A stretch of 28,192 nt of DNA, from positions 1-28,192 of the IMG/VR virus record IMGVR_UViG_3300045051_001126, one strand, 5' to 3'. The notes below the pieces were generated by a model. It was not told the DNA's origin. It saw only the letters and a list, made by a program, of their open reading frames with translations, and ran no database searches. Positions within the stretch are counted from its first letter, which is position 1, and the number at the start of each line of letters is the position of its first letter. Of this stretch, positions 9,897 to 28,192 are shown piece after piece. A program made the translations under genes and the position numbers. Origin of the DNA: a virus.

Positions 9897-11351
9897 TTAA
9901 AGCTTGAAGCTCAGTCGAACGCCAAACACGCGGAACTGGTTGACCAGGTTGGGGGGCAGCACCGCATCGACCCGATTGGGGTCATCCGCATTTCGCTCCA
10001 CCCTCAGCTCGGCTTTGAACGCGGCCATGTCCTCGACCAGGCCCCGTTGCTCCATCTCACTGAACAGGCCAATGAGCTCGGCCCGGATTACCCGAGGGGT
10101 CACCACCGCCTGACCAGGGGCGATGCGTGTCCCGTCGTTGGCCAGCTTGTGCCGCGGAAATCGCAACGCAATTCGGGTGCGCACCGCAAACCGAATGTAG
10201 GCCAGGGTTCTCATCGTCTCAATGTCGAGGTAGCTGGTGTCGGCAGTGCCCAACCCATTCACCTGGTAGGTGGTGATCAGACGTTCGATGAGGCAGCGTC
10301 CGTTCGCGTCCACCACAAAGGTGCTGATGCCGTCGCGCAGCAGCAGGTCCCGCTCATCCCGGGTGAACTGAGCAGAGCGCGCAGGGGCCAGCACACCCTT
10401 GAGCCACAGCGTCTGCCGAGGTCGCGCTGGATCAGCCTCCCCAGCGTCCAGGGCTGCTACCACGGCTGCCACCTCCCAGGGCGGTGTCGGAGACTGAGAG
10501 CCCATAATGCTCAGAAACTGGCTGTTCCGAGCATCTCCCAGGGTCAGCAGGTTGGAGTAGGTGTCGCGGGCGGCTGCAAAGGCCTGCCCTTCCTTCTGCA
10601 CCGTGGGGCCAAAACGGCGCTCGAGCTCGGCTTCCAGAGCTGTCAGGTTGGTGTCGTCAATCCAGGCCGTCACAACGGTGTGGAACTGCTCATCGGCCAT
10701 CGCAGTGATGGCCGTGCTGAGCGATGGGTTGGTGGCACCAGAAGCCATGGCCGTGATGGTGACCGTGACACCCGCCGGGGTAAGCTGCCCGGGGTAGTAG
10801 TTCACCCGAATGTCGATGCTGTTGCCTGGCACGCCCTTATTGCGGGCAGTCAGGGTGACGGTGGAGCTGCTCACCGAAGCTGTCACCGGCAAATCCGTGA
10901 CTGCATTGACGGCGTCTGCCACGTTCGACGCAATCGCTGTGGTGGCATCCCCACTCTCCACAGCCACCGGGATGTAACGACCAGCCACCAGCAGGTGAAT
11001 CGTGCCAGCGGAGGCACCTGATCCCCCGATCACGATTGTTCCTGTGGCGGCCACCCCAGAGCCATGGTCCGAGATGCCCACTGCCCACAGCTCCGCCGAC
11101 GTGTTGATCTGGCGAAAGGCAGCCACCATACGATGCGCCGTCGAGCCGCGGCCAAACAGACTCTCGGCCTGGTCGATGGATGTCAGCTTGTACAGGGTAT
11201 TGGAGGTGCCCAGCCCACTGCTGAGGCGCCCTCCCAAAATCAGCACACGGTGGGTTTCAGTCGGAAGCCCTTCCAGTGCGTTGCTGTTGTCCACTTCGAT
11301 GTAACTGCCCGGCGTTCTGATGTCAGTGGGCACATTGGTAAAGTCAATCAC
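9897..11351 (-). CDS. L: Contractile tail sheath protein, Mu gpL (gp39)-like
   Basis: A 484-residue sheath protein. The N-terminus IDFTNVPTDIRTPGSYIEVD is the standard extension that threads into neighbouring subunits. Other family sections are VLILGGRLSSGLG, AESLFGRGSTAHRMVAAF, GVPGNSIDIRVNYYPG in the outer domain and a conserved C-terminal part (DTSYLDIETMRTLAYIRF, ending NQFRVFGVRLSFKL). Its contraction drives the tube through the host envelope. It starts at GTG, overlapping the gp38-like stop as GTGA. Confidence 0.92.
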   Translation of the reverse strand: MIDFTNVPTDIRTPGSYIEVDNSNALEGLPTETHRVLILGGRLSSGLGTSNTLYKLTSIDQAESLFGRGSTAHRMVAAFRQINTSAELWAVGISDHGSGVAATGTIVIGGSGASAGTIHLLVAGRYIPVAVESGDATTAIASNVADAVNAVTDLPVTASVSSSTVTLTARNKGVPGNSIDIRVNYYPGQLTPAGVTVTITAMASGATNPSLSTAITAMADEQFHTVVTAWIDDTNLTALEAELERRFGPTVQKEGQAFAAARDTYSNLLTLGDARNSQFLSIMGSQSPTPPWEVAAVVAALDAGEADPARPRQTLWLKGVLAPARSAQFTRDERDLLLRDGISTFVVDANGRCLIERLITTYQVNGLGTADTSYLDIETMRTLAYIRFAVRTRIALRFPRHKLANDGTRIAPGQAVVTPRVIRAELIGLFSEMEQRGLVEDMAAFKAELRVERNADDPNRVDAVLPPNLVNQFRVFGVRLSFKL

Positions 11352-13630: not shown

Positions 13631-13999
13631 CTACTTTTTCGGCGGTTCCACGGTTTTGGTGTCCAGTGCGACATCCCCGCCATCCGGAGAAAGCCCACCC
13701 TTGTCCGGTGCGCCTGCTGTGGGCGTACCCACGTCCGGGCCCGTCGGAGGTGGGGGCGGAGCCGCTTGGCTGGTTTTGGTGGCCAGAGCGGCCTCCAGCG
13801 CCTCGCGCAGAGGCTGCACCTGCATGTCGATGTGTTGCTGGGCATCCCGGATCTTCTCGAGGCTGACTTCCTCGACGCGATCAAGGCGGCTCAAACGCTC
13901 CGCCTGCTTTGGCTCGAGCTCAATCAGCTCGCCCAGGTGGTAGCGCTTGTGATTGTGAAGGATGGTGCCCTTCGCCAGAAAGTGCTTCAAACGGCTCAT
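13631..13999 (-). CDS. Small protein coupled to the capsid gene, proline-rich C-terminus
   Basis: A 122-residue protein. The first 40 residues (MSRLKHFLAKGTILHNHKRY, then HLGELIELEPKQAERL) look like a small beta domain, as in short proteins found directly after capsid genes. A helix of about 50 residues follows, then a Pro/Gly/Ala-rich flexible tail (AAPPPPPTGPDVGTPTAG). The true start is the ATG that overlaps the capsid stop as ATGA; the longer frame to 14224 is inside the capsid gene. Function is unknown; the context suggests head completion or decoration. Confidence 0.75.
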   Translation of the reverse strand: MSRLKHFLAKGTILHNHKRYHLGELIELEPKQAERLSRLDRVEEVSLEKIRDAQQHIDMQVQPLREALEAALATKTSQAAPPPPPTGPDVGTPTAGAPDKGGLSPDGGDVALDTKTVEPPKK

Positions 14000-14928
14000 A
14001 CGCACGCCTCCAGGTAATACCCCAGCTCGGTATAGGTGACGAGCTCCCGAACGGCCTCGCCAACACGCACATCCTGACCACCGCTCATGCCAATGTCCTT
14101 GTCCGGCAGAGCGCCCGCCACCCGGCCGCTGCGCAGCTCGGCGGTGAAACCCCAGGTGGGACGCACATCCTTCACGCTGGTCATCTGGGTATTGAGATGC
14201 AGCAGCGCACAGTTGCCACCCCAAACCCGGCTGTAGCTGGCCGACTGGCCCTTCTTTGCCGAGTTCAGGAACCCCTGACCCACCAGCACACGGTCCAGCT
14301 CGAAAAGCCGGGCGAGCTGCTCGCGGGTGGCCACACCCGACGTGCCGGAGTTACCCAGCGCCGCTGAGACAATCTTGGGGTGCTGAACCAGCTTCGAATA
14401 CGCCGCCTGCCCGATGACCATGGTGTTCGGGCGCATCAGGGGGGTATTCAGCCCATCCATGATCTGAGCGATCGGGTCGGAGCTCGTGTCATCCCACTGG
14501 TCGGTACCGCTCAGGGTGACCTGATTGGCGGCGGGGTAGTTGGCGGTGTTGAACACCGTACCCGCTACCCGCACCTCGCGGTCGAGCTGCACCAGGTGGG
14601 AAAGGCCCTGCACCGCGTTGGCCACAGGGTCCATGCCAGAAACACGACCCTCCTCGATGTCGCTGTTGGGGACACCATCCGCCAGACCAAAGTCCTCGAC
14701 CGAGCCCTCAGTCTCCGTCGCATTGAACTCCACCTGGTTGGGCTTTGACTTTCGCCCCACCCGGGTGTTGGGTACGGTGAAATTCTGGGCGGTGTTCCAC
14801 TTAAGGTATTTGAACGTGCGACCTGCGACCGGTACCCGCATGAGCACCTGGTCGGAGATCAGCGCAGTGTTTGAGACACCCATGAAAATGGCCAGCAGCG
14901 CTGGCGTACTGGGAAACGGACGAGCCAC
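13996..14928 (-). CDS. Major capsid protein
   Basis: A 310-residue capsid protein of a family I know from other tailed phages and prophages: VLMRVPVAGRTFKYLKW, then FTVPNTRVGRKSKPNQVEF, FGLADGVPNSDIEEG, the NTMVIGQAAYSKLVQHPKIV helix-strand and a C-terminal DIGMSGGQDVRVGEAVRELV. It does not resemble Mu's own capsid protein T, so the capsid gene seems to come from another lineage than the Mu-type tail genes. It begins with GTG preceded by GAGGAGG and is coupled to the next gene by ATGA. Confidence 0.88.
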   Translation of the reverse strand: MARPFPSTPALLAIFMGVSNTALISDQVLMRVPVAGRTFKYLKWNTAQNFTVPNTRVGRKSKPNQVEFNATETEGSVEDFGLADGVPNSDIEEGRVSGMDPVANAVQGLSHLVQLDREVRVAGTVFNTANYPAANQVTLSGTDQWDDTSSDPIAQIMDGLNTPLMRPNTMVIGQAAYSKLVQHPKIVSAALGNSGTSGVATREQLARLFELDRVLVGQGFLNSAKKGQSASYSRVWGGNCALLHLNTQMTSVKDVRPTWGFTAELRSGRVAGALPDKDIGMSGGQDVRVGEAVRELVTYTELGYYLEACV

Positions 14929-17770: not shown

Positions 17771-18019
17771 ATGAAAATCGAACCAGGTTACCAACTCGCA
17801 AGAGCTGTAATCGCCGGATTTCGCCTACAAGGCACGACGATGAATCACTGGTGCAAGCAAAACGGCATTACACAACAGAACGCTAATCAGGCAATTCGTG
17901 GAAGTTGGAACGGTCCCAAGGCAAAACAACTACTTCTTGCAATTGTGCAGGCTTCTGGAGCCGGAAACCTCTTGAACGTTTCTGAACAGACGGGAAAAGG
18001 CGAGGTAGTTGAAACATGA
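17771..18019 (+). CDS. Early HTH protein, paralogue 1 (HTH module only)
   Basis: An 82-residue protein and the first early gene, in the position of ner in Mu. It is essentially a single helix-turn-helix module: LARAVIAGFRLQGTTMNHWC, then GITQQNANQAIRGSWNGPKA and IVQASGAGNLL. The same module recurs in the next two genes. It is similar in outline to the small gp16-type HTH proteins of the phage BcepMu group (an AGF/W-C helix, a QAIxG recognition helix, then GPxA), but I cannot prove membership. Its stop overlaps the next start as ATGA. The likely role is tuning of the lysis-lysogeny switch. Confidence 0.75.
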   Translation: MKIEPGYQLARAVIAGFRLQGTTMNHWCKQNGITQQNANQAIRGSWNGPKAKQLLLAIVQASGAGNLLNVSEQTGKGEVVET

Positions 18020-18345
18020 GACAGGCTTTTCGCGATGGCAGCCCTGAACAATTTTTGGCCGCTCTGCTGGCCTTGCCGGTATTCATCCAGACCGAGATGG
18101 AGGCCCGTCGACCAATAGAACCAGGTCCACGGCTGGCGGATGCGGTGATGGCCGGTTTTCGCCTACGCCGAACCAGTTTGTATAAGTGGTGTGCAAGCAG
18201 CGGCTTGCGCCAGCAAAACGCACACCAAATTCTGACAGGTCGCTGGACTGGGCCAACGGCAAAGCGACACCTCGAAGCCATGGTTGAGGCCTCAGGTGCG
18301 CGGGCCCTTTTGACACAGTCGAATGAGGAAGGAAGCAAGGAATGA
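18016..18345 (+). CDS. Early HTH protein, paralogue 2 (N-module plus HTH module)
   Basis: A 109-residue protein. Residues 10-25 (PEQFLAALLALPVFIQTE) form a short hydrophobic helix shared with the two following genes. Residues about 38-100 are the HTH module shared with the flanking paralogues: LADAVMAGFRLRRTSLYKWC, SGLRQQNAHQILTGRWTGPT, then AKRHLEAMVEASGARALL. Closest to paralogue 3, with which it shares GRWTGPTAKRHL exactly. ATGA overlaps on both sides imply coupled translation. The N-module may mediate pairing among the family members; this is inference. Confidence 0.75.
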   Translation: MRQAFRDGSPEQFLAALLALPVFIQTEMEARRPIEPGPRLADAVMAGFRLRRTSLYKWCASSGLRQQNAHQILTGRWTGPTAKRHLEAMVEASGARALLTQSNEEGSKE

Positions 18346-18680
18346 GACCACAACTGGGCAAATGTGAAGAGTTTCTGGCCGCCATTTTGGCTATGCCGAC
18401 GCTGTTGACTCAGATTGACTTTGATCACACAGGGCCCAGTAGAGTGGAAATTCTGCCCTCAAAGAAACTGGCGAATGCTGTAAAGGCTGGCTTTCGCCTT
18501 CGAAACACCAGTCTCTACAAATGGTGTGCGGAATCTGGCATTCGCCATCAGGGCGCCTCTCAGATTCTCTCTGGCAGATGGACTGGCCCAACAGCCAAAC
18601 GACACCTGCAAGCAATGATCGAGGCGTCTGGAGCTGCAGCGCTCATGGGTTCAGACGAAGCTGGAGGCGGTCAGAAATGA
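18342..18680 (+). CDS. Early HTH protein, paralogue 3 (N-module plus HTH module)
   Basis: A 112-residue protein with the same two-part plan as its upstream neighbour: CEEFLAAILAMPTLLTQ at residues 8-24, then LANAVKAGFRLRNTSLYKWC, SGIRHQGASQILSGRWTGPT and AKRHLQAMIEASGAAALM. The spacer between the modules differs in length and sequence from paralogue 2. Divergence among the copies is high enough that they are old duplicates, or were acquired separately, rather than recent ones. Coupled by ATGA at both ends. Confidence 0.75.
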   Translation: MRPQLGKCEEFLAAILAMPTLLTQIDFDHTGPSRVEILPSKKLANAVKAGFRLRNTSLYKWCAESGIRHQGASQILSGRWTGPTAKRHLQAMIEASGAAALMGSDEAGGGQK

Positions 18681-19134: not shown

Positions 19135-19317
19135 ATGGACGTGAGACCGGGCACCAGGGTCACCTGGGGCGAGCTGATTATGCGTGACGGAAAGGCGGTG
19201 GTCATCAACCGCCTGGGCACTGTGGAGAGCGTGCTTGGCCATTACTGCCGGGTGCGCCAGGATCACAACTCACGCGTGCCGGAGCTTCCGGTGCGGATTT
19301 TGAGGAGGGTGGGATGA
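19135..19317 (+). CDS. Small early hypothetical protein
   Basis: A 60-residue protein after the palindrome block. The ribosome-binding site AGTGGAGG lies about seven bases before the ATG, followed by MDVRPGTRVTWGELIMRDGK and SVLGHYCRVRQDHNSR. It looks like a small beta barrel. The PGxxVxW motif at its start recurs as PGAIVSW in the C-terminal domain of the double-Ner protein two genes on, so both may carry the same small domain. No function known. Its stop overlaps the next start (ATGA). Confidence 0.65.
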   Translation: MDVRPGTRVTWGELIMRDGKAVVINRLGTVESVLGHYCRVRQDHNSRVPELPVRILRRVG

Positions 19318-19784
19318 AGAAGCTGACGATCTACCTGGCGAGTAGCTGGAAAAACCAGCGGTATCCCGAGGTATTGCAGGCACTGCGAGCCGCGGGCCAT
19401 GACGTCTACGACTTCCGGCACCAGGGCTTTTCGTGGTCTTCCGTGGATCCCGGCTGGCGCCAGTGGAGCCCGGCTCAGTTTTGCGATGCGCTGAAAACAG
19501 ACACAGCCAAGAAGGGCTTTGCCACCGACATGAATGCCCTGATCGAGGCCGACGTAGTGGTCCTGCTCATGCCATGCGGGCGGTCTGCTCATCTGGAGCT
19601 GGGGTTTGCCTGCGGTGCTGGGAAGGTAGCGCTGGTGTTGCAGGAGGAACCAGCGGAGGCCGAGCTGATGTATGGGATGACTGATGGGATCTGTACTTCG
19701 TTGGCTGATCTGCTCCTTGTTTTGGGCCTGACTGATGTCGCCAATAGCAATTTTGACAAGGAGGATATGTCATGCGAAGGTTGA
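19314..19784 (+). CDS. Nucleoside 2-deoxyribosyltransferase-like protein
   Basis: A 156-residue protein. The N-terminus MKKLTIYLASSWKNQRYPEV fits the family's first strand and loop; next come AAGHDVYDFRHQ, KGFATDMNALIEADVVVLLM and the signature PCGRSAHLELGFACGAGK, ending with EAELMYGMTDGI. Enzymes of this fold break or transfer the bond between base and deoxyribose, or remove bases from nucleotides. Phage members are usually annotated from sequence alone. In an early operon it may alter the nucleotide pool or counter a nucleotide-based host defence; this is speculation. It overlaps the following start by 13 bases. Confidence 0.75.
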   Translation: MKKLTIYLASSWKNQRYPEVLQALRAAGHDVYDFRHQGFSWSSVDPGWRQWSPAQFCDALKTDTAKKGFATDMNALIEADVVVLLMPCGRSAHLELGFACGAGKVALVLQEEPAEAELMYGMTDGICTSLADLLLVLGLTDVANSNFDKEDMSCEG

Positions 19785-20431
19785 AAGTAGCCCCCACGCC
19801 GCTGCCACCCCCCAACTGTACCACCCAGATGCTGCGCTCCTGGGTGCGGGCAACACTGGCGGAACGCAACAGCTCGCTGGAGCACATCGCGGATCAGCTC
19901 GGTGTGAAGCTCAGCTCTCTGTGTGGAGCCTTCAACAACGGCTGCCCTCGATATCAGCGGGCCATAGCCGATGCCTGCGGCGTCTCACCCGACGCTCTCT
20001 GGCCACAGAATCACGCCACCACCCCACCGGGTACGCCGATTGATGAAGCCGCCCGATTGGCACCTATACCCACCCACCCCCTTGGTCGTGAGCACTGGAT
20101 TCGCTATCAGCTTGCCATGCGGCTTGTCACGGTGGCCAGCCTGGCAAAGAAGCTGGGGATCAGCCCGGAAGCAGCGCAGACCGCCTTTCGTCGTTCCTAC
20201 CCACGGGTGGAAGCGGTCATTGCCGAGGCCATCGGCATGAACCCCTCGGAACTCTGGCCCGAGCGCTACCAGCCAAACGACCAGTGGCAGCCGGGCGCCA
20301 TTGTCAGCTGGGAAGAAGGTACCCGGCGACTGACGGGCACGATTGCGAAGCGTGAGCGCAACGAGCTGACGGTGCGCAGCGCGGACGCCACCTACTACCT
20401 CACCACCCGTGATGTGCTGGAGGTGCGATGA
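19772..20431 (+). CDS. Regulator with two Ner-like HTH domains
   Basis: A 219-residue protein. Residues about 22-82 (LRSWVRATLAERNSSLEHIA, then GCPRYQRAIADACGVSPDAL and WPQ) and about 105-168 (RYQLAMRLVTVASLAKKLGI, then SYPRVEAVIAEAIGMNPSEL and WPERY) each follow the Ner/Nlp pattern: HTH, proline, a helix with IAxAxGxxPxxLWP. Mu Ner is a single such domain that shuts down early transcription and c. Here two copies are fused and followed by a beta-looking C-terminal domain (QPGAIVSWEEGTRRLTGT). ATG 19772 has AAGGAGG well placed. I infer a DNA-binding negative regulator that could bind two half-sites as one chain. Confidence 0.8.
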   Translation: MRRLKVAPTPLPPPNCTTQMLRSWVRATLAERNSSLEHIADQLGVKLSSLCGAFNNGCPRYQRAIADACGVSPDALWPQNHATTPPGTPIDEAARLAPIPTHPLGREHWIRYQLAMRLVTVASLAKKLGISPEAAQTAFRRSYPRVEAVIAEAIGMNPSELWPERYQPNDQWQPGAIVSWEEGTRRLTGTIAKRERNELTVRSADATYYLTTRDVLEVR

Positions 20432-22347: not shown

Positions 22348-22381
22348 ACCCCTTTAACCCCCTGTTCTATTGGAGAGATCA

Positions 22382-23755
22382 ATGGATCCCGTTGAAAACA
22401 GTCTGATGGAGTTTGTGAGAGATGCCCGCATTCCGGTGAGCCTCTCGGAAATCCAGGATCACTTCCGCGCCCGGAGGGTTCGCACCAGCCGGACCAATAC
22501 GCTGGAGCTGCTGGAGAACCTGGTACAGGATGGCGCGCTGGTGGTGCAGGGCACCATCGGCTCTGACTCGGAGCTGTACAGCCTGCCCGCTCCCACCCCC
22601 ATGCAGGTGCCCGAATGGCAGGAGCCTGCCTCAGAAGAGGCTTCCCCTCGCACCATGGCGGACTTCATTGAGGAAGCGCCCGCCGCCACACCATCCGCCC
22701 CCCTGCCCACCACCGATGTGTTCGACATGGTGCCGACGGGCGAGCAGATCCTGCTTCCGGAGCTTCCAGAGGAGGCGCTGCCCCTTGAAGAGGCTTTCAA
22801 GGCTGTCAACCAGGTGGGCGCAATTGCCAACGAGCTGGGCATCGAGCTGCCTGAGTTCAACATGGCCAACACCCACGTGCTGATCCGTCAGTCCGTCCAA
22901 CGCAGCTTCCAGGAGTGGCTGCGCACGGGCGCGCTGCTCTACCAGGCCCGCCTCTACACTTCCAGGGCAGAATTCGCCGAGTGGGTGGCGCGCTGCGGCA
23001 TCCCCATGTCGGAGCGATCTATTCAAAAGGCCATCTCTGGATTCCGCGCCATTCAGGAGATTCCCGAGTGTCGCAAGCTGGCCTCCGGAATGAGCAGCAT
23101 CAAAAAGTTCCAGGTGGTGCAGCGTGTGCTGACCGTACCCGGGGCGCTCGAAGTCTACCGCAGCACCGGCAAGATTCTCGACATGACCCCTGCCGAGCTG
23201 GATTCAGCTTCCAAGACCACACTCGAGGCCCTCGAAAAGGAGATGCGGCGCAAGGGCGAGGAGGCCTCCGCCAAGATTGCTGCCCTCGAAACGGCGGTGG
23301 CCGCCAAGGATGAGGAGCTGGGCAAGGTCCATCGGGAGCTGTCTCTGCGGACCAATCCGGAGCTGTCGGAAGCAGCCCTCAGCAAGGCCTTTCTCGCCGA
23401 GATCGGTCAGCTCATTGATGCCGCCTACCCACGCCTCGCCCAGCTGCAGGTCGGACGTCGAACCGACCTGAACTCACTCCAGCCCACTGCCATCAGCCGC
23501 GGATACGTGGCCCTGATCGGTCTGTCCAAGACTCTGAGTCTGGTGCTTCGCGAGTTTGAGGCCCGCTGGGGCAAGCAGGTCCCCGAGCTGCTGCTGGACG
23601 AGGACGGTCAGATGCGCATGCCCGTCACTCGCCAGGAGCTGCGCATTCTGGCGCGTGACGCGCAGGAGGCGGACATTGGCGGGCAGGCGGCGCTCAAGGG
23701 CCAGCAGGTGCTGGTGTTCCGCCGGGATGAACAGGTCGCAGAGATCGCTGACTGA
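22382..23755 (+). CDS. Early DNA-binding-like protein with winged helix and coiled coil
   Basis: A 457-residue protein. Residues 1-65 look like a winged helix (SLSEIQDHFRARRVRTSRTN, then LELLENLVQDGALVVQGT). A Pro/Glu-rich linker follows to about 115. The middle (SFQEWLRTGALLYQARLYTS, RAEFAEWVARCGIPMSERSI, then QKAISGFRAIQEI) recalls DUF3102-type phage/plasmid proteins, which contain an HTH. Next come a strong coiled coil (TTLEALEKEMRRKGEEASAK and onward) and a C-terminal helical domain. It is the gene immediately before the transposase. I suggest a DNA-binding accessory protein; ParB-like and enhancer-binding roles are both conceivable. The start is ATG 22382 with GGAGAG upstream, preferred to the TTG at 22370. 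Confidence 0.65.
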   Translation: MDPVENSLMEFVRDARIPVSLSEIQDHFRARRVRTSRTNTLELLENLVQDGALVVQGTIGSDSELYSLPAPTPMQVPEWQEPASEEASPRTMADFIEEAPAATPSAPLPTTDVFDMVPTGEQILLPELPEEALPLEEAFKAVNQVGAIANELGIELPEFNMANTHVLIRQSVQRSFQEWLRTGALLYQARLYTSRAEFAEWVARCGIPMSERSIQKAISGFRAIQEIPECRKLASGMSSIKKFQVVQRVLTVPGALEVYRSTGKILDMTPAELDSASKTTLEALEKEMRRKGEEASAKIAALETAVAAKDEELGKVHRELSLRTNPELSEAALSKAFLAEIGQLIDAAYPRLAQLQVGRRTDLNSLQPTAISRGYVALIGLSKTLSLVLREFEARWGKQVPELLLDEDGQMRMPVTRQELRILARDAQEADIGGQAALKGQQVLVFRRDEQVAEIAD

Positions 23756-23775: not shown

Positions 23776-25530
23776 ATGGCTCGAGGATTGATGTTGAACC
23801 CTGAAGTGCTGGTCGCTGCTCGCCAACGGGTGCAGGCGTCGGGATGGGGTGAACGCAGCAGGGTGGTGAATGAGCTGGCAGGATGCTGGGGCATCTCAGT
23901 CTCTCAGGTATGGCGCATTCTGGATTTGGACACGGGCCGCAAACGGAGGTCGGACCAGGGGGAGACCATCCTGACAGATGCTGATCTGCAGAAGATGGCC
24001 GCCTACCTGGTCCGCTCCATGCGGGATTCCGGCGTATGCCTGGGCAGTGTGAAGCGTGGGAAGGAGATTCTGCTGCGCAGCGGAGAGATCTCCCTCGCGT
24101 CCGCTCAGGCCAGTGACGCCACCTGGAATCGCCAGCTGCGAAAGCATGGGCTGGCCAAGGAGTTTTTGGCAGCGCCGTCGCTGGCCACTGAGGTGGCCAC
24201 CCGCTTTCCCAACGACTGGCACATGGTGGATGCGTCGATCGCCATCCTCTTTTACCTCACCCCCAAGGGGAAGATGGAGTTTGAGCGGTTCGATTTGGCC
24301 GACCCCAAAAACAAGCCGCAGGAGTGGGCAAAGAAGGTGCGCTCCCGCCTGCTGCTGGTGCGCTGGGTGCTGGTGGACTGTTATTCCGGCGCGGTGGTGG
24401 TCGATTACCGGGAGGCCAGCGGCGAAAACACCCGGGATTTGCTCGACTTCCTGCACTACGCCTGGAGCCCCAAGAACGACCGGCGCTGGCCCTTTCATGG
24501 GATCCCGTTCAATCTGGGAGCCGATCAGGGCGCTCCGCAGAAATCGTCCTACGTCGATAGCCTGGCCAGTGTGCTGGGCTTCAGTCTGCACCTGCACCGG
24601 TCCAGTCACGAGCGCAAGGACGCCCCAGCGGCTCGAGCATCGGGTGACGTCGAGACCATCATGCGGGTGTGGGAAGAGAATTTTGAGAGTCGCTGGCGGC
24701 TCAATCCGCCCACTGGCGGTCTGGCTCAGGTGCGCGATCAAGCTCGAGACTTCTGCATCGCCCTGAACAGCAGTGAGCAGTATAGGCTCAGAAGTACTGA
24801 TTTCACCCGATCTCAGCTCTGGCTGGACATCCGGGAAGAGCACATCCGTCTCCCCCCACCCCTTCATCAGTTTCGGGAACTGGCGATCTCGAGCCCTTTC
24901 AGCCGGGTACTGGACGCTTACGGACGGGTACGCATCGACGGCGACTTCTACAAGATTCCCAGCTGCCCCTGGTATCCAGGGGAGGAGCTGCAGGTGCGCC
25001 GGAACGCCTGGGAGCCGGAGAAAGTCGAGGTGGTCAACCCCCGCACGGGGGAGATGCTTGACGCGTTCAAGCTGGAGATCACCCGCACTGGGAAAACCTC
25101 CGCTGCGGTGTACCGGGGAGAGAAGGAGGAGGCCGACAAGCCGGTCTCAGGTCGCCAGCCCAAACACACAGCGGCTCGTCTGCGGGAGACGGTGGATGCT
25201 GAGGTGAAAGCCAAGAGCGGACTGTGGGAGCCGGGCAAGCTGGACACTGGCCTTGGCACCCATGCCGAAACGGTCAAGGTGGAGTTCGCACCACGGACGG
25301 GAACGCTGGTGCTGCCTGCGGTGAGTGGTCGCCGGATCGATTTGTGGGATGCCTTTGCGCTGGCCAGCCAGCGGCTCGGCCGTGAGCTGAACAAGGCCGA
25401 CACCGACTTTCTGGAAGCGCGGCTGACAGCACGGCGGTTTGACGAGCTGGAGGCCCTCCGGGTGATTGAGGAGCTGGCGGCTCAGCAGGGACAAGGCCGG
25501 AAGCTGCTCACGCTGGGAGGTGGCCGATGA
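23776..25530 (+). CDS. A: DDE transposase of the phage (MuA-type role)
   Basis: A 584-residue transposase/integrase-core protein that would cut and join phage ends for integration and replicative transposition. Residues about 25-50 hold an HTH (RVVNELAGCWGISVSQVWRI). In the catalytic core I assign Asp152 (DWHMVDAS), Asp250 (FNLGADQG) and Glu293 (ASGDVETIMR); the last two are 43 residues apart, as in this superfamily. Past residue 385 a Mu-type beta-barrel follows (YGRVRIDGDFYKIPSCPWYP, then EELQVRRN), then a basic linker and a helical tail, where MuA contacts MuB. It is shorter than MuA (663), mainly at the N-terminal end-binding part. AAGGAGG lies upstream of the ATG; the stop overlaps the next gene as ATGA. 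Confidence 0.9.
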   Translation: MARGLMLNPEVLVAARQRVQASGWGERSRVVNELAGCWGISVSQVWRILDLDTGRKRRSDQGETILTDADLQKMAAYLVRSMRDSGVCLGSVKRGKEILLRSGEISLASAQASDATWNRQLRKHGLAKEFLAAPSLATEVATRFPNDWHMVDASIAILFYLTPKGKMEFERFDLADPKNKPQEWAKKVRSRLLLVRWVLVDCYSGAVVVDYREASGENTRDLLDFLHYAWSPKNDRRWPFHGIPFNLGADQGAPQKSSYVDSLASVLGFSLHLHRSSHERKDAPAARASGDVETIMRVWEENFESRWRLNPPTGGLAQVRDQARDFCIALNSSEQYRLRSTDFTRSQLWLDIREEHIRLPPPLHQFRELAISSPFSRVLDAYGRVRIDGDFYKIPSCPWYPGEELQVRRNAWEPEKVEVVNPRTGEMLDAFKLEITRTGKTSAAVYRGEKEEADKPVSGRQPKHTAARLRETVDAEVKAKSGLWEPGKLDTGLGTHAETVKVEFAPRTGTLVLPAVSGRRIDLWDAFALASQRLGRELNKADTDFLEARLTARRFDELEALRVIEELAAQQGQGRKLLTLGGGR

Positions 25531-26543
25531 CTGCCAAGAAGCGGCCCACCAAGGCTCAGCGGGCAGTGCTGGCCATTCAAGAGAAGGCGCTCAGTGCGGC
25601 AGCCCACTGCCCTGAGTGTGGCAGTCCCACCCGCACCATTGCCGATGGCACGGCAGCATTTGCGTTCTGTCCGGTGTGCCACGCGCGACGCCTGCGCGAC
25701 CAGGCGGTGCGCCGCCAGGAAGCCAAGGTCGAGCGCGACCAGGTGGTAAAGCCGATGCCCCAGAAACCGCTGGTGGAGCAGACGACCTGCCCTGACTGCG
25801 GGGGAGCCAAGAAGATCATTCGTATTCTGTCCTCTGTGATCGGCATCTGCGAGACCTGTAGAGCTCAGGCTCTGCGGGCAGAGAAGGCTGCGGAAGAGGC
25901 TCAGCGCGCTGCCAGCGTCAACGATGCCCTGGTCTACGCTGGGATCCCGGCGAAGTACCACGGTTATTCGTTGCTGGACATAACCAAGCTGCACGACTGG
26001 CGGGGGCGGCCCATTCCCCCCCGTGAGAACTGGCCGGTCGGGGTGGTCATGATCACCACCCAGAGCGAATACGACTTCATCAAGCGGCTACGCCACTTGC
26101 AGTACAACCAGCTGCGGTTCTGGGGGCTGGTGGATGGCCCGCCGGGCCAGGGCAAGACCTTATTATTAGCGGCCTGGCTGTGTGACCAGATTCGGCTGGG
26201 GCTGCGCGGGGCACTCTGGCTGTCGGAGCGGGAGTTTGCCAACCTCTCTGCTGCTCAGTTCGGCACTGTCCAGAAACAGCGCGCTGATGAGCTGCTCGAT
26301 CGTGCGGGTCGCTCCCGTTTGTTGGTCTGGGACGACCTCGGATTTACAGGCAACGGCAAGCTCTTTGCCAACGTGTTGGGCCTGCGCTACGAGCGCGAGC
26401 TGCCCACCCTCATTTCCACCAATCTCACGGCAAGCCAGCGAGTCCGTCTGCTGGACGCCCCGACGGCTTCGCGTCTGCACGAGCTGACCCGTGCTGGTTT
26501 CCTCGTGACGCTCGAAGGGCCAGACAAGAGGAGTGCTGTATGA
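25527..26543 (+). CDS. DnaC/IstB-like AAA+ ATPase with two zinc ribbons
   Basis: A 338-residue protein. Two N-terminal zinc ribbons have identical spacing, C28-x2-C31-x16-C48-x2-C51 and C88-x2-C91-x16-C108-x2-C111. The ATPase follows: Walker A GPPGQGKT (204-211), Walker B LLVWDD (265-270), a sensor STN (297-299) and an Arg in ASRLHEL. This is the DnaC/IstB clade, whose members load replicative helicase or assist IS21 transposase. Position right after the transposase, coupled by ATGA, allows either role. Mu has no such gene and borrows host proteins to start replication after strand transfer; a phage-borne helicase loader could do that step here. The zinc ribbons may contact DNA or the transposase. 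Confidence 0.8.
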   Translation: MTAKKRPTKAQRAVLAIQEKALSAAAHCPECGSPTRTIADGTAAFAFCPVCHARRLRDQAVRRQEAKVERDQVVKPMPQKPLVEQTTCPDCGGAKKIIRILSSVIGICETCRAQALRAEKAAEEAQRAASVNDALVYAGIPAKYHGYSLLDITKLHDWRGRPIPPRENWPVGVVMITTQSEYDFIKRLRHLQYNQLRFWGLVDGPPGQGKTLLLAAWLCDQIRLGLRGALWLSEREFANLSAAQFGTVQKQRADELLDRAGRSRLLVWDDLGFTGNGKLFANVLGLRYERELPTLISTNLTASQRVRLLDAPTASRLHELTRAGFLVTLEGPDKRSAV

Positions 26544-27667
26544 CGACGACCCTACGAGACGCACGGAAAGCCAAGGAGCTGACACTGGCACAGCTGGGCG
26601 AGCAGGTGGGACTGACCACCCAGCAGCTCAGCCGCATCGAGACCCACCACCCGAGCAGAGTGCAGCTCTGCGCGGAGAAACGCCTACGTCTATTGGAGCT
26701 GTATGGGGTTGGGCCAGAGGAGCTGGCCCATTGTCCTGAGGTGAAAGGGAAGCGGACGCCGGTGAAGCTTTCCCCGGCAATTGAAACGGAGAAGCCCATG
26801 TTTGAAGATCGCGTGACGTTAACAAAAGACGAGATGAAGCGGCTGAATTTGGTTGGGGATCCATTCCCAGAGCGGCCGCATCACGGCAAGTTTTTCTGGT
26901 GGCCAGCGCTTTCGAACACGCTGGAGAAAATTGAGGAAGACCTTTTTTACTCGCGCATGGTGGCCCTGGTGGGACCGTCGGGCGCGGGCAAAAGCTCTGT
27001 ACTGGCTCAGGTGCGCGAGAATCTGGAGGAGGCAGGCGACACCATCATCGTAGACCTCGCGTCCACCGACCGCAGCCGTCTCACTGACTGGACGGTGGAG
27101 ATGGCCATCCTCAAAGCGTTGGGACAGTCCCGCGGGAAGGTGCCCAGCTCGGCAACAGACCGGCTCGAGTTGCTGATTCGCCTGCTGAGCAAGTCGGCAC
27201 GGGAGGGAAAGAAGCTTGCATTGCTTTGTGACGATTTTCACGACGTCAACAACGTGCTGTTGAAGCAGCTCCGACGGCTGCGCGAAGCCGATGCTCGGAA
27301 TGCCCTGTTTGGGGCGGTGCTGTCGGGTCAGCCTCACCTGGCGTCCGCTCTGCGCAGTGAAGAGCTGCGCGAGGTGGGGGGGCGTACTCAGCTGGTAGAA
27401 ATGCCGCGCATGGGTGGGCTTGACCATCAGGGCAAGCCGCTGCCCAACGTGGGGCTGGCCTATATCAAGTGGAGCTATGAGCAGCTCGGAATGGAGGCGG
27501 AGCGGCACTTTAGCCCTGAGGCAGCCCACTTGATCGCGGAAATTGCCGAGCATCCGCTGTGGGTGCGCAACCTGGCGACACGGGCGCTGAAGGAGCTGGC
27601 ATCGCGTGGCGTGGGCGGACGCCCGGTGGATCCGGGTCTGCTGCACAAGCTGGTGAGGCGCTCATGA
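26540..27667 (+). CDS. B: MuB/TnsC-like AAA+ ATPase with N-terminal HTH
   Basis: A 375-residue protein. Residues 4-58 are a Cro-type HTH (DARKAKELTLAQLGEQVGLT, then TQQLSRIETH). The ATPase carries Walker A GPSGAGKS (145-152), Walker B LALLCDD (226-232) and a sensor segment GAVLSGQPHLASALR. The section FFWWPALSNTLEKIEEDLFY before Walker A, and a helical lid, fit the ExeA/TnsC/MuB group. MuB is likewise an HTH plus AAA+ protein that coats target DNA, directs the transposase away from the phage's own genome and stimulates strand transfer. It overlaps both neighbours by ATGA. Confidence 0.85.
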   Translation: MTTTLRDARKAKELTLAQLGEQVGLTTQQLSRIETHHPSRVQLCAEKRLRLLELYGVGPEELAHCPEVKGKRTPVKLSPAIETEKPMFEDRVTLTKDEMKRLNLVGDPFPERPHHGKFFWWPALSNTLEKIEEDLFYSRMVALVGPSGAGKSSVLAQVRENLEEAGDTIIVDLASTDRSRLTDWTVEMAILKALGQSRGKVPSSATDRLELLIRLLSKSAREGKKLALLCDDFHDVNNVLLKQLRRLREADARNALFGAVLSGQPHLASALRSEELREVGGRTQLVEMPRMGGLDHQGKPLPNVGLAYIKWSYEQLGMEAERHFSPEAAHLIAEIAEHPLWVRNLATRALKELASRGVGGRPVDPGLLHKLVRRS

Positions 27668-28192
27668 GTGCAGCAGCACCAGCCCAGCGTACCATCAGTC
27701 AGAACCGCCACATTCACAAGCTGGCCGCCGATCTGGCGGGTTTGAGCCAGCTCGATCCGGAGCTTGTCCCCAAGAAGGTGCTGGCCGTGAAGGGTAAGGA
27801 CCTCAAGGAGCAGTGGCGGATCTACCTCACTCAGAAGGTGAGCGGGCAGGAGCACTCCAGCCAGCTCACCACAACACAGGCGCGGCAGTGGGTGCAGGAG
27901 GCAGAGAAGCACCTGCAGAAGCTCCGCGACGGACTGACGGGGGTGAAGCAGGCGCGCGCCAGCAACACCATTTCCCCCGCCATGCAGCAGCACATCGGGA
28001 AGCTGCTGGAGGCCATCGCCTGGCTTGGAGGTCGATATGCCTCGATGGCAGGCAGTCCAGCCAAGCTACGGCAGTTCTGTGAGCACTACCTGAAGCAGCC
28101 CTGGCCTCAGACTGAGAAGGCTGCGGACGACCTGATCGAGGCTCTGAAATCCATCCTGAAGCGCTCGTTGCCAGACAAACAGGCGCTCGTTG
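27664..28192 (+). CDS. Early protein after MuB-like ATPase, partial at window edge
   Basis: Open from ATG 27664 to the end of the window, 176 codons without a stop. It starts MSAAAPAQRTISQNRHIHKL and is mostly helical and charged (VQEAEKHLQKLRDGLTG, then EKAADDLIEALKSILKRSL). The N-terminal stretch with an IHKL motif, and the later FCEHYLKQPWPQTEKAADDL, remind me slightly of GemA/gp16-type (DUF1018) early proteins of Mu-like phages, but this is weak and no function is claimed. The start overlaps the upstream stop as ATGA, so it belongs to the same operon. Confidence 0.6.
   Translation, partial: MSAAAPAQRTISQNRHIHKLAADLAGLSQLDPELVPKKVLAVKGKDLKEQWRIYLTQKVSGQEHSSQLTTTQARQWVQEAEKHLQKLRDGLTGVKQARASNTISPAMQQHIGKLLEAIAWLGGRYASMAGSPAKLRQFCEHYLKQPWPQTEKAADDLIEALKSILKRSLPDKQALV

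Follow-up and report, generated by a model that had tools for sequence, protein, structure and literature searches.

A putative helicase-loader gene between the transposase and MuB-type ATPase genes of a B3/BcepMu-like transposable phage

The window analysed here is the whole of a 28,192-base virus sequence, IMG/VR record IMGVR_UViG_3300045051_001126, in which the minus strand carries contractile-tail genes (sheath, baseplate, tape measure, capsid and protease) and the plus strand carries the early genes. Among the latter, tnpA, encoding a transposase of the DDE kind, is followed by a gene for a 338-residue DnaC-like ATPase and then by tnpB, encoding a second ATPase of the MuB/TnsC type (Table 1). 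The order of a DDE transposase, a DnaC/IstB-like ATPase and a MuB/TnsC-like ATPase with a helix-turn-helix (HTH) had been proposed earlier from the letters of the window alone (hereafter the original prediction) and its coordinates were found to be exact to the base, while the proposed coupling by ATGA was seen at both the tnpA/loader and the loader/tnpB junction and both proposed zinc ribbons of the middle protein were recovered with four cysteines each. The gene following tnpB likewise begins by an ATGA overlap (27664-27667). The G+C content at third codon positions (GC3) is 0.755 for tnpA, 0.757 for the middle gene and 0.733 for tnpB and, since these values are nearly equal, the middle gene resembles neither a recently acquired foreign segment nor a joint made in assembly.

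Table 1. Positions of the genes, junctions and protein motifs of the tnpA-loader-tnpB region in the window (L numbers denote loci of relatives).
Feature	Position	Strand	Basis
461-aa (amino acid) gene before tnpA	22370..23755	+	phmmer to gene upstream of TnpA in L071 (1.5e-8), L029, L076
tnpA: DDE transposase, B3/BcepMu-like kind, 584 aa	23776..25530	+	phrog_310 3.8e-29; tblastn to B3-like phages
ATGA overlap: tnpA stop / loader start	25527..25530	+	sequence
Putative DnaC-like helicase-loader gene, 338 aa	25527..26543	+	phrog_50 2.8e-21; window-free 31-loader profile 2.7e-19
First zinc ribbon (extra), C28/C31...C48/C51	25608..25679	+	motif scan
Second zinc ribbon, C88/C91...C108/C111	25788..25859	+	aligns with single ribbon of phage loaders
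Walker A GPPGQGKT (204-211)	26136..26159	+	K210 aligned to E. coli DnaC K112
Walker B LLVWDD (265-270)	26319..26336	+	D270 at DnaC catalytic E170
P312 at arginine-coupler position (E. coli DnaC R216)	26460..26462	+	alignment
R316, arginine finger (E. coli DnaC R220)	26472..26474	+	alignment
ATGA overlap: loader stop / tnpB start	26540..26543	+	sequence
tnpB: MuB/TnsC-type AAA+ ATPase, N-terminal HTH, 375 aa	26540..27667	+	AAA_22, HTH_31, tblastn, fold
Gene after tnpB, weakly GemA-like, runs off contig	27664..28191	+	Pfam GemA 0.036; phrog_286 2.7e-8

A search with tblastn using TnpA, which matches the PHROGs transposase family phrog_310, retrieved 58 phage records, the majority from B3-like Pseudomonas phages. 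Pfam gave no match to the protein at E <= 1, and a search for the Pfam domain rve across the whole record found nothing. When eight TnpA sequences were aligned, residues D152, D250 and E293 were invariant and, from the general DDE pattern, are presumed to be the catalytic triad. TnpB matches Pfam AAA_22 (2.9e-14) and HTH_31 (1e-7) and, by tblastn, protein B as encoded in B3-like phages. The model of TnpB (predicted local distance difference test, pLDDT, 83.2) retrieved an archaeal origin recognition complex (ORC) chain first, the MuB filament 8xvb_A third (1.7e-7) and TnsC chains close behind, with archaeal and eukaryotic ORC/Cdc6 chains scoring alike. A DDE transposase and phage virion genes are both present in the record, and sequence comparison places TnpA and TnpB with those of B3/BcepMu-like transposable phages. 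The order usual among such phages, although no definition of them, is tnpA followed by tnpB with no other ATPase, and it is not kept in the window.

To place the middle protein, viral relatives were collected by a scan with its AAA+ part, which gave at least 45 viral loaders. The PHROGs family of DnaC-like helicase loaders, phrog_50, matches the middle protein with 77.2 bits (2.8e-21) and a second loader family, phrog_3277, with 44.9 bits (2.2e-11), while the scores against the two curated IstB families lie below their cut-offs (Pfam IstB_IS21, 22.4 bits, cut-off 24.1; NCBIfam IS21_help_AAA, 27.3 bits, cut-off 200). An alignment (A7) of 31 of the 45 loader loci together with the window protein, in which near-copies as well as L271 and L284 were left out, has all 32 members matching phrog_50, and a profile made from the 31 viral loaders without the window detects the middle protein at 2.7e-19. 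With home-made profiles of seven rows each, a hand-picked set of diverse viral loaders gave 53.1 bits, six random draws (excluding L284, L268 and L271) 39.1-52.7 bits and IstB 32.1 bits. In a maximum-likelihood tree of 61 rows, which omits L270 because it duplicates an Acinetobacter protein, seven IstB proteins form one clade (100/100) and the window protein stands outside it, beside the viral loader L284 (98/82), which likewise is without the arginine coupler and whose gene follows a primosomal/O-like gene. The profile comparison that the original prediction had proposed for both ATPases assigns TnpB to AAA_22 and HTH_31, with MuB and TnsC found by fold, and the middle protein to the DnaC-like loader family over IstB. 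By its profile scores the middle protein fits the phage helicase loaders far better than IstB, and the idea that the phage supplies its own loader gained support from the phrog_50 match, the missed IstB cut-offs and the presence of the N-terminal ribbon of phage loaders. An insertion of IS21 was considered and rejected, there being no IstA and neither IstB cut-off being reached.

The N-terminal part separates the two families further. In most viral loaders one ribbon of the form C..H/C - CP.C lies ahead of the AAA+ domain, and its four columns hold C, H or C, C and C in 45, 46, 48 and 48 of 51 loader rows; the full set of four residues is found in none of the seven IstB proteins (0/7), nor does any of the seven have a C..C/H motif there. 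Where IstB has a helical N-terminal extension without a zinc ribbon, the window protein has two four-cysteine ribbons. Among the 45 listed viral loader loci a comparable double ribbon was found in the protein of Acinetobacter sp. WCHA55 plasmid p1_010055 alone, which is 26% identical to the window loader over 320 positions. In the AAA+ domain the loader keeps the Walker A lysine K210, the Walker B aspartate D269, the sensor I residue N299, the arginine finger R316 and the sensor II arginine R335; aspartate in the place of the catalytic glutamate, as in D270, is shared by 6 of the 51 loader rows. The arginine coupler, typical of loaders without defining them, is arginine in 46 of the 51 loader rows, absent from the other five, and found in 0/7 IstB; in the window loader its position is taken by P312.

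When analysing the gene neighbourhoods of the loader relatives, neither TnpA nor TnpB was found near the loader at any of the 45 listed loci. The gene directly upstream was scanned at eight of the 45 and matched replication-initiation or primosomal families in all eight; the sole downstream neighbour scanned is a DnaB-type helicase, and the Acinetobacter loader is also preceded by a protein with replication-initiation matches. Because the neighbours are initiators and primosomal genes, the family of the window loader is, as judged from sequence matches, one of phage replication modules, and the transposase in the window occupies the slot of the initiator. A pattern built from two loaders alone retrieved one locus, the already known Acinetobacter plasmid, tblastn of the loader against phages gave no match at 1e-5, and the loader was found in 0/399 genomes of one order (1e-6) and 0/12 further genomes. 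The Acinetobacter sp. WCHA55 plasmid p1_010055 (L008:18907-20942) is also an IMG/VR virus contig and, with its replication-initiator-like gene and double-ribbon loader, looks like a phage-plasmid.

To determine how common the arrangement is, relatives were gathered with TnpA and TnpB alignments from IMG/VR and from GTDB species genomes, the latter giving 74 loci. Sampled genomes were searched as well: TnpA was detected at 1e-30 in 8 of 399 genomes belonging to one order, and in 3 of 369 genomes belonging to one class. The survey covers part of the relatives, the best 80 of 588, 80 of 132 and 80 of 331 relatives having been taken from the IMG/VR scans. In all 326 loci were examined (250 + 76), of which 14 have one partner missing from the examined stretch and 312, the window included, have both; these 312 represent 267 distinct TnpA tails. 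An ATPase gene between tnpA and tnpB was recognised in the window alone among the 312 loci. Among 241 pairs the window alone has an open reading frame (ORF) with a Walker A motif between A and B, and the further 71 pairs, with gaps of up to 605 nt, gave no loader-profile match outside the TnpB frames, Walker A ORFs having been checked in the six largest gaps and in L323 and the rest covered by the loader profile. The weak loader-profile matches in L218, L192, L042, L323 and L339 (the contig of L042) were rejected as the TnpB frames themselves. A search with phrog_50 across 50 relatives' records of at least 25 kb (48 of 80 IMG/VR loci, on contigs over 25 kb, together with B3 and phiSHP3) gave one weak match, in L024 (0.002), also rejected since it sits inside that locus' own TnpB. 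Gaps between A and B of up to 1182 nt in relatives were considered as loader sites and discarded, as they hold small ORFs without Walker A. The A-B junction of the relatives is itself an insertion site, with one to four small unknown ORFs in several of them (L125:3540-4719, L127:3918-4729, L109, L158 and L326).

The suggestion that the pair of ATPases is conserved in BcepMu-like phages was therefore not borne out, nor is the pair conserved in B3-like phages: the Bcepmuvirus record PhiKM has A directly followed by B, and the window is the one locus in 312 with an ATPase recognised between the two. In a TnpA tree of 40 hand-picked rows the closest relatives, L323, L253 and L265, group with the window (91/89) and all have A directly followed by B; the window TnpA is about 25-33% identical to any relative found and its branch measures 2.23 changes per column. 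Single-sequence scans of IMG/VR with the loader, TnpA and TnpB revealed no close relatives, and no match at the DNA level was found among 50,697 phage records, in collections that may lack the window's own record and those most similar to it. The simplest reading of these comparisons is that the loader was gained on the window's own long branch. The arrangement is real, well formed and apparently rare, and a search of the open PMC literature, outside which subscription journals and preprints lie, found no paper describing a helicase loader within a transposable phage's A-B operon.

Taken together, the results suggest, with a probability of about 0.62, that the middle gene encodes a zinc-ribbon phage helicase loader, captured by a B3/BcepMu-like transposable myophage into its A-B operon and acting to start replication at transposition forks. 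In the manner of MuB, TnpB would polymerise on target DNA and deliver the target to TnpA; once strand transfer is complete, a replicative helicase would be needed at the forks formed at either end of the phage, and the phage loader may bring the host DnaB-type helicase to them. TnpA would then take the slot that an O-like initiator holds beside such loaders in ordinary phages. The account of Mu given in PMC3334882 has ClpX loosening the transpososome, PriA acting at the fork and DnaB arriving from the host DnaB-DnaC complex. The ribbons of the loader perhaps contact the helicase or the transpososome; in DnaI an N-terminal zinc fold is reported to bind the C-terminal domain of DnaB (PMC3791466).

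A more far-reaching version, possible but rather doubtful, is that the whole switch from transposition to replication is held in one coupled operon of transposase, own helicase loader and target-selecting ATPase, where the coupler-less loader would place the helicase on strand-transfer forks without host PriA/PriC and the transposase would serve as replication initiator. According to PMC8213410, an E. coli DnaC with alanine in place of the coupler arginine has an ATPase that no longer depends on single-stranded DNA and, in vitro, permits DnaB to unwind a fork coated with single-stranded DNA-binding protein (SSB) in the absence of PriC, although the R216A allele cannot keep cells viable. Restart-independent loading would be the boldest step of this version, and since all seven IstB proteins are also without the coupler, its loss argues for such loading only if the protein is a loader.

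Several points weigh against a captured loader. The B3-like phages evidently manage without one, and the contig is a fragment without ends. With the AAA+ domain alone the profile margin narrows (loaders 41.9 bits, IstB 34.4 bits), the highest identity to any loader in the tree is 24%, and a fold comparison of the loader model (pLDDT 77) ties DnaC (Z 18.5) with IstB (Z 18.3), a tie that is to be expected from the close paralogy of IstB and DnaC/I described in PMC11208146. IstB proteins, too, lack the arginine coupler and are encoded next to a transposase. A tight grouping of the 338-residue protein with IstB, named in the original prediction as one outcome that would refute its loader idea, is absent from the tree, where the protein lies outside the IstB clade, but an approximately unbiased (AU) test does not reject joining the two (p 0.0925); given this and the long branch of the window loader (2.98 changes per column), the tree alone is not decisive.

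The same fold tie, absent coupler, unrejected grouping and istB-like position next to a DDE transposase favour the best surviving alternative, in which the middle protein would be a second, IstB-type transposition ATPase: TnpB would sample the target and the IstB-like protein would bend DNA or activate TnpA, the two acting in series. This is unlikely in view of the scores below both curated IstB cut-offs, the higher scores of the loader profiles, the double zinc ribbon where IstB has none, the position in the tree and the neighbouring transposase, which is the B3-type TnpA of phrog_310 and not of IstA type. Two further explanations are both quite improbable. The loader could be a host-takeover factor that diverts the host helicase from the chromosome, by binding it or by competing with the DciA/DnaC of the host, with no role at transposition forks; loader genes are usually early genes of phages, and helicase loaders are reported in PMC9912922 to bind DnaB at one shared site, but the translational coupling between tnpA and tnpB favours a use together with the transposition proteins. 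It could equally be a passenger gene at a tolerated A-B insertion site, of little effect on the phage, as the small unrelated ORFs at the same place in other relatives would suggest; an open frame of 338 codons with its ATPase residues kept, two exact ATGA overlaps and a GC3 equal to that of its neighbours speak against this. An assembly chimera or annotation artefact is very improbable, for although the evidence is a single contig of which no second copy was found, two in-frame ATGA junctions and a uniform GC3 would not result from chance joining.

The original prediction had also argued that a self-supplied loader would widen the host range. According to PMC5109545, homologues of dnaC and dnaI are absent from Pseudomonas aeruginosa, yet this species is the host of most B3-like phages that the TnpA search retrieved, and a search of the whole record of Pseudomonas phage B3 gave no loader match. 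For these reasons a self-supplied loader is no requirement for replicative transposition in hosts such as P. aeruginosa, which weighs against that argument. If a captured loader is the right reading, its significance is this: most of what is known about the hand-over of transposition forks to the replisome comes from Mu, which uses the loader of its host, and a phage loader coupled to the transposase would allow the hand-over to be studied with phage proteins alone, in a case where a helicase loader is recruited by a transposase and not by an origin-binding initiator. It would also illustrate the movement of DnaC-like loaders between phage replication modules, described in PMC5109545 as the source of the domesticated bacterial genes dnaC and dnaI.

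Outside the operon, the 461-residue gene before tnpA has an N-terminal winged helix, as read by eye, and resembles a fused version of the two small genes preceding tnpA in B3-like phages. At the start of the early operon (17771-18680, plus strand) a small HTH-like gene is present in three tandem copies, consecutive copies overlapping and each matching phrog_15281 (17771-18019, 18016-18345 and 18342-18680). In the same early region and on the same strand follow a nucleoside deoxyribosyltransferase (19314-19784; phrog_12607, 1.5e-46) and a 219-aa protein (19772-20431) in which two stretches match phrog_769, a family of repressors, as would result from a duplication and fusion. The virion genes on the minus strand are mosaic (9897-11351 and 13996-14928); the tail sheath is closest to that of Bordetella phage PBb001 (48.6%), followed by Paraburkholderia IPK and Mu, and the major capsid is closest to those of Pseudomonas phage Bise and Curvibacter TJ1.

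The families of TnpA, TnpB and the loader are already known, and what is new here, as far as sequence comparison tells, is a transposable phage with a putative zinc-ribbon helicase loader added to its A-B operon. With the B3-like and BcepMu-like phages (Pseudomonas phage B3, phiSHP3, Bise and PhiKM) the window shares the families and order of TnpA and TnpB, the gene preceding tnpA, the divergent late genes and, most closely with Bise, the major capsid, but in the window alone does a loader lie between A and B. The phrog_50 loaders of initiator-loader-helicase modules (for example psageK9, Hali and Acinetobacter sp. WCHA55 plasmid p1_010055) have the same zinc ribbon and DnaC-type AAA+ domain, that of Acinetobacter even the double ribbon, while their partner gene is an O-like or DnaD-like initiator where the window has a transposase, and the window loader lacks the arginine coupler. 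In IS21 a DDE transposase, IstA, is likewise followed by a DnaC-paralogue ATPase, IstB; unlike IS21, the window has zinc ribbons, a second ATPase of MuB type, a transposase of another family and IstB scores below the cut-offs. The A and B proteins of Mu offer the same pair of transposase and MuB-type ATPase, but Mu depends on host DnaC for helicase loading, as described in PMC3334882.

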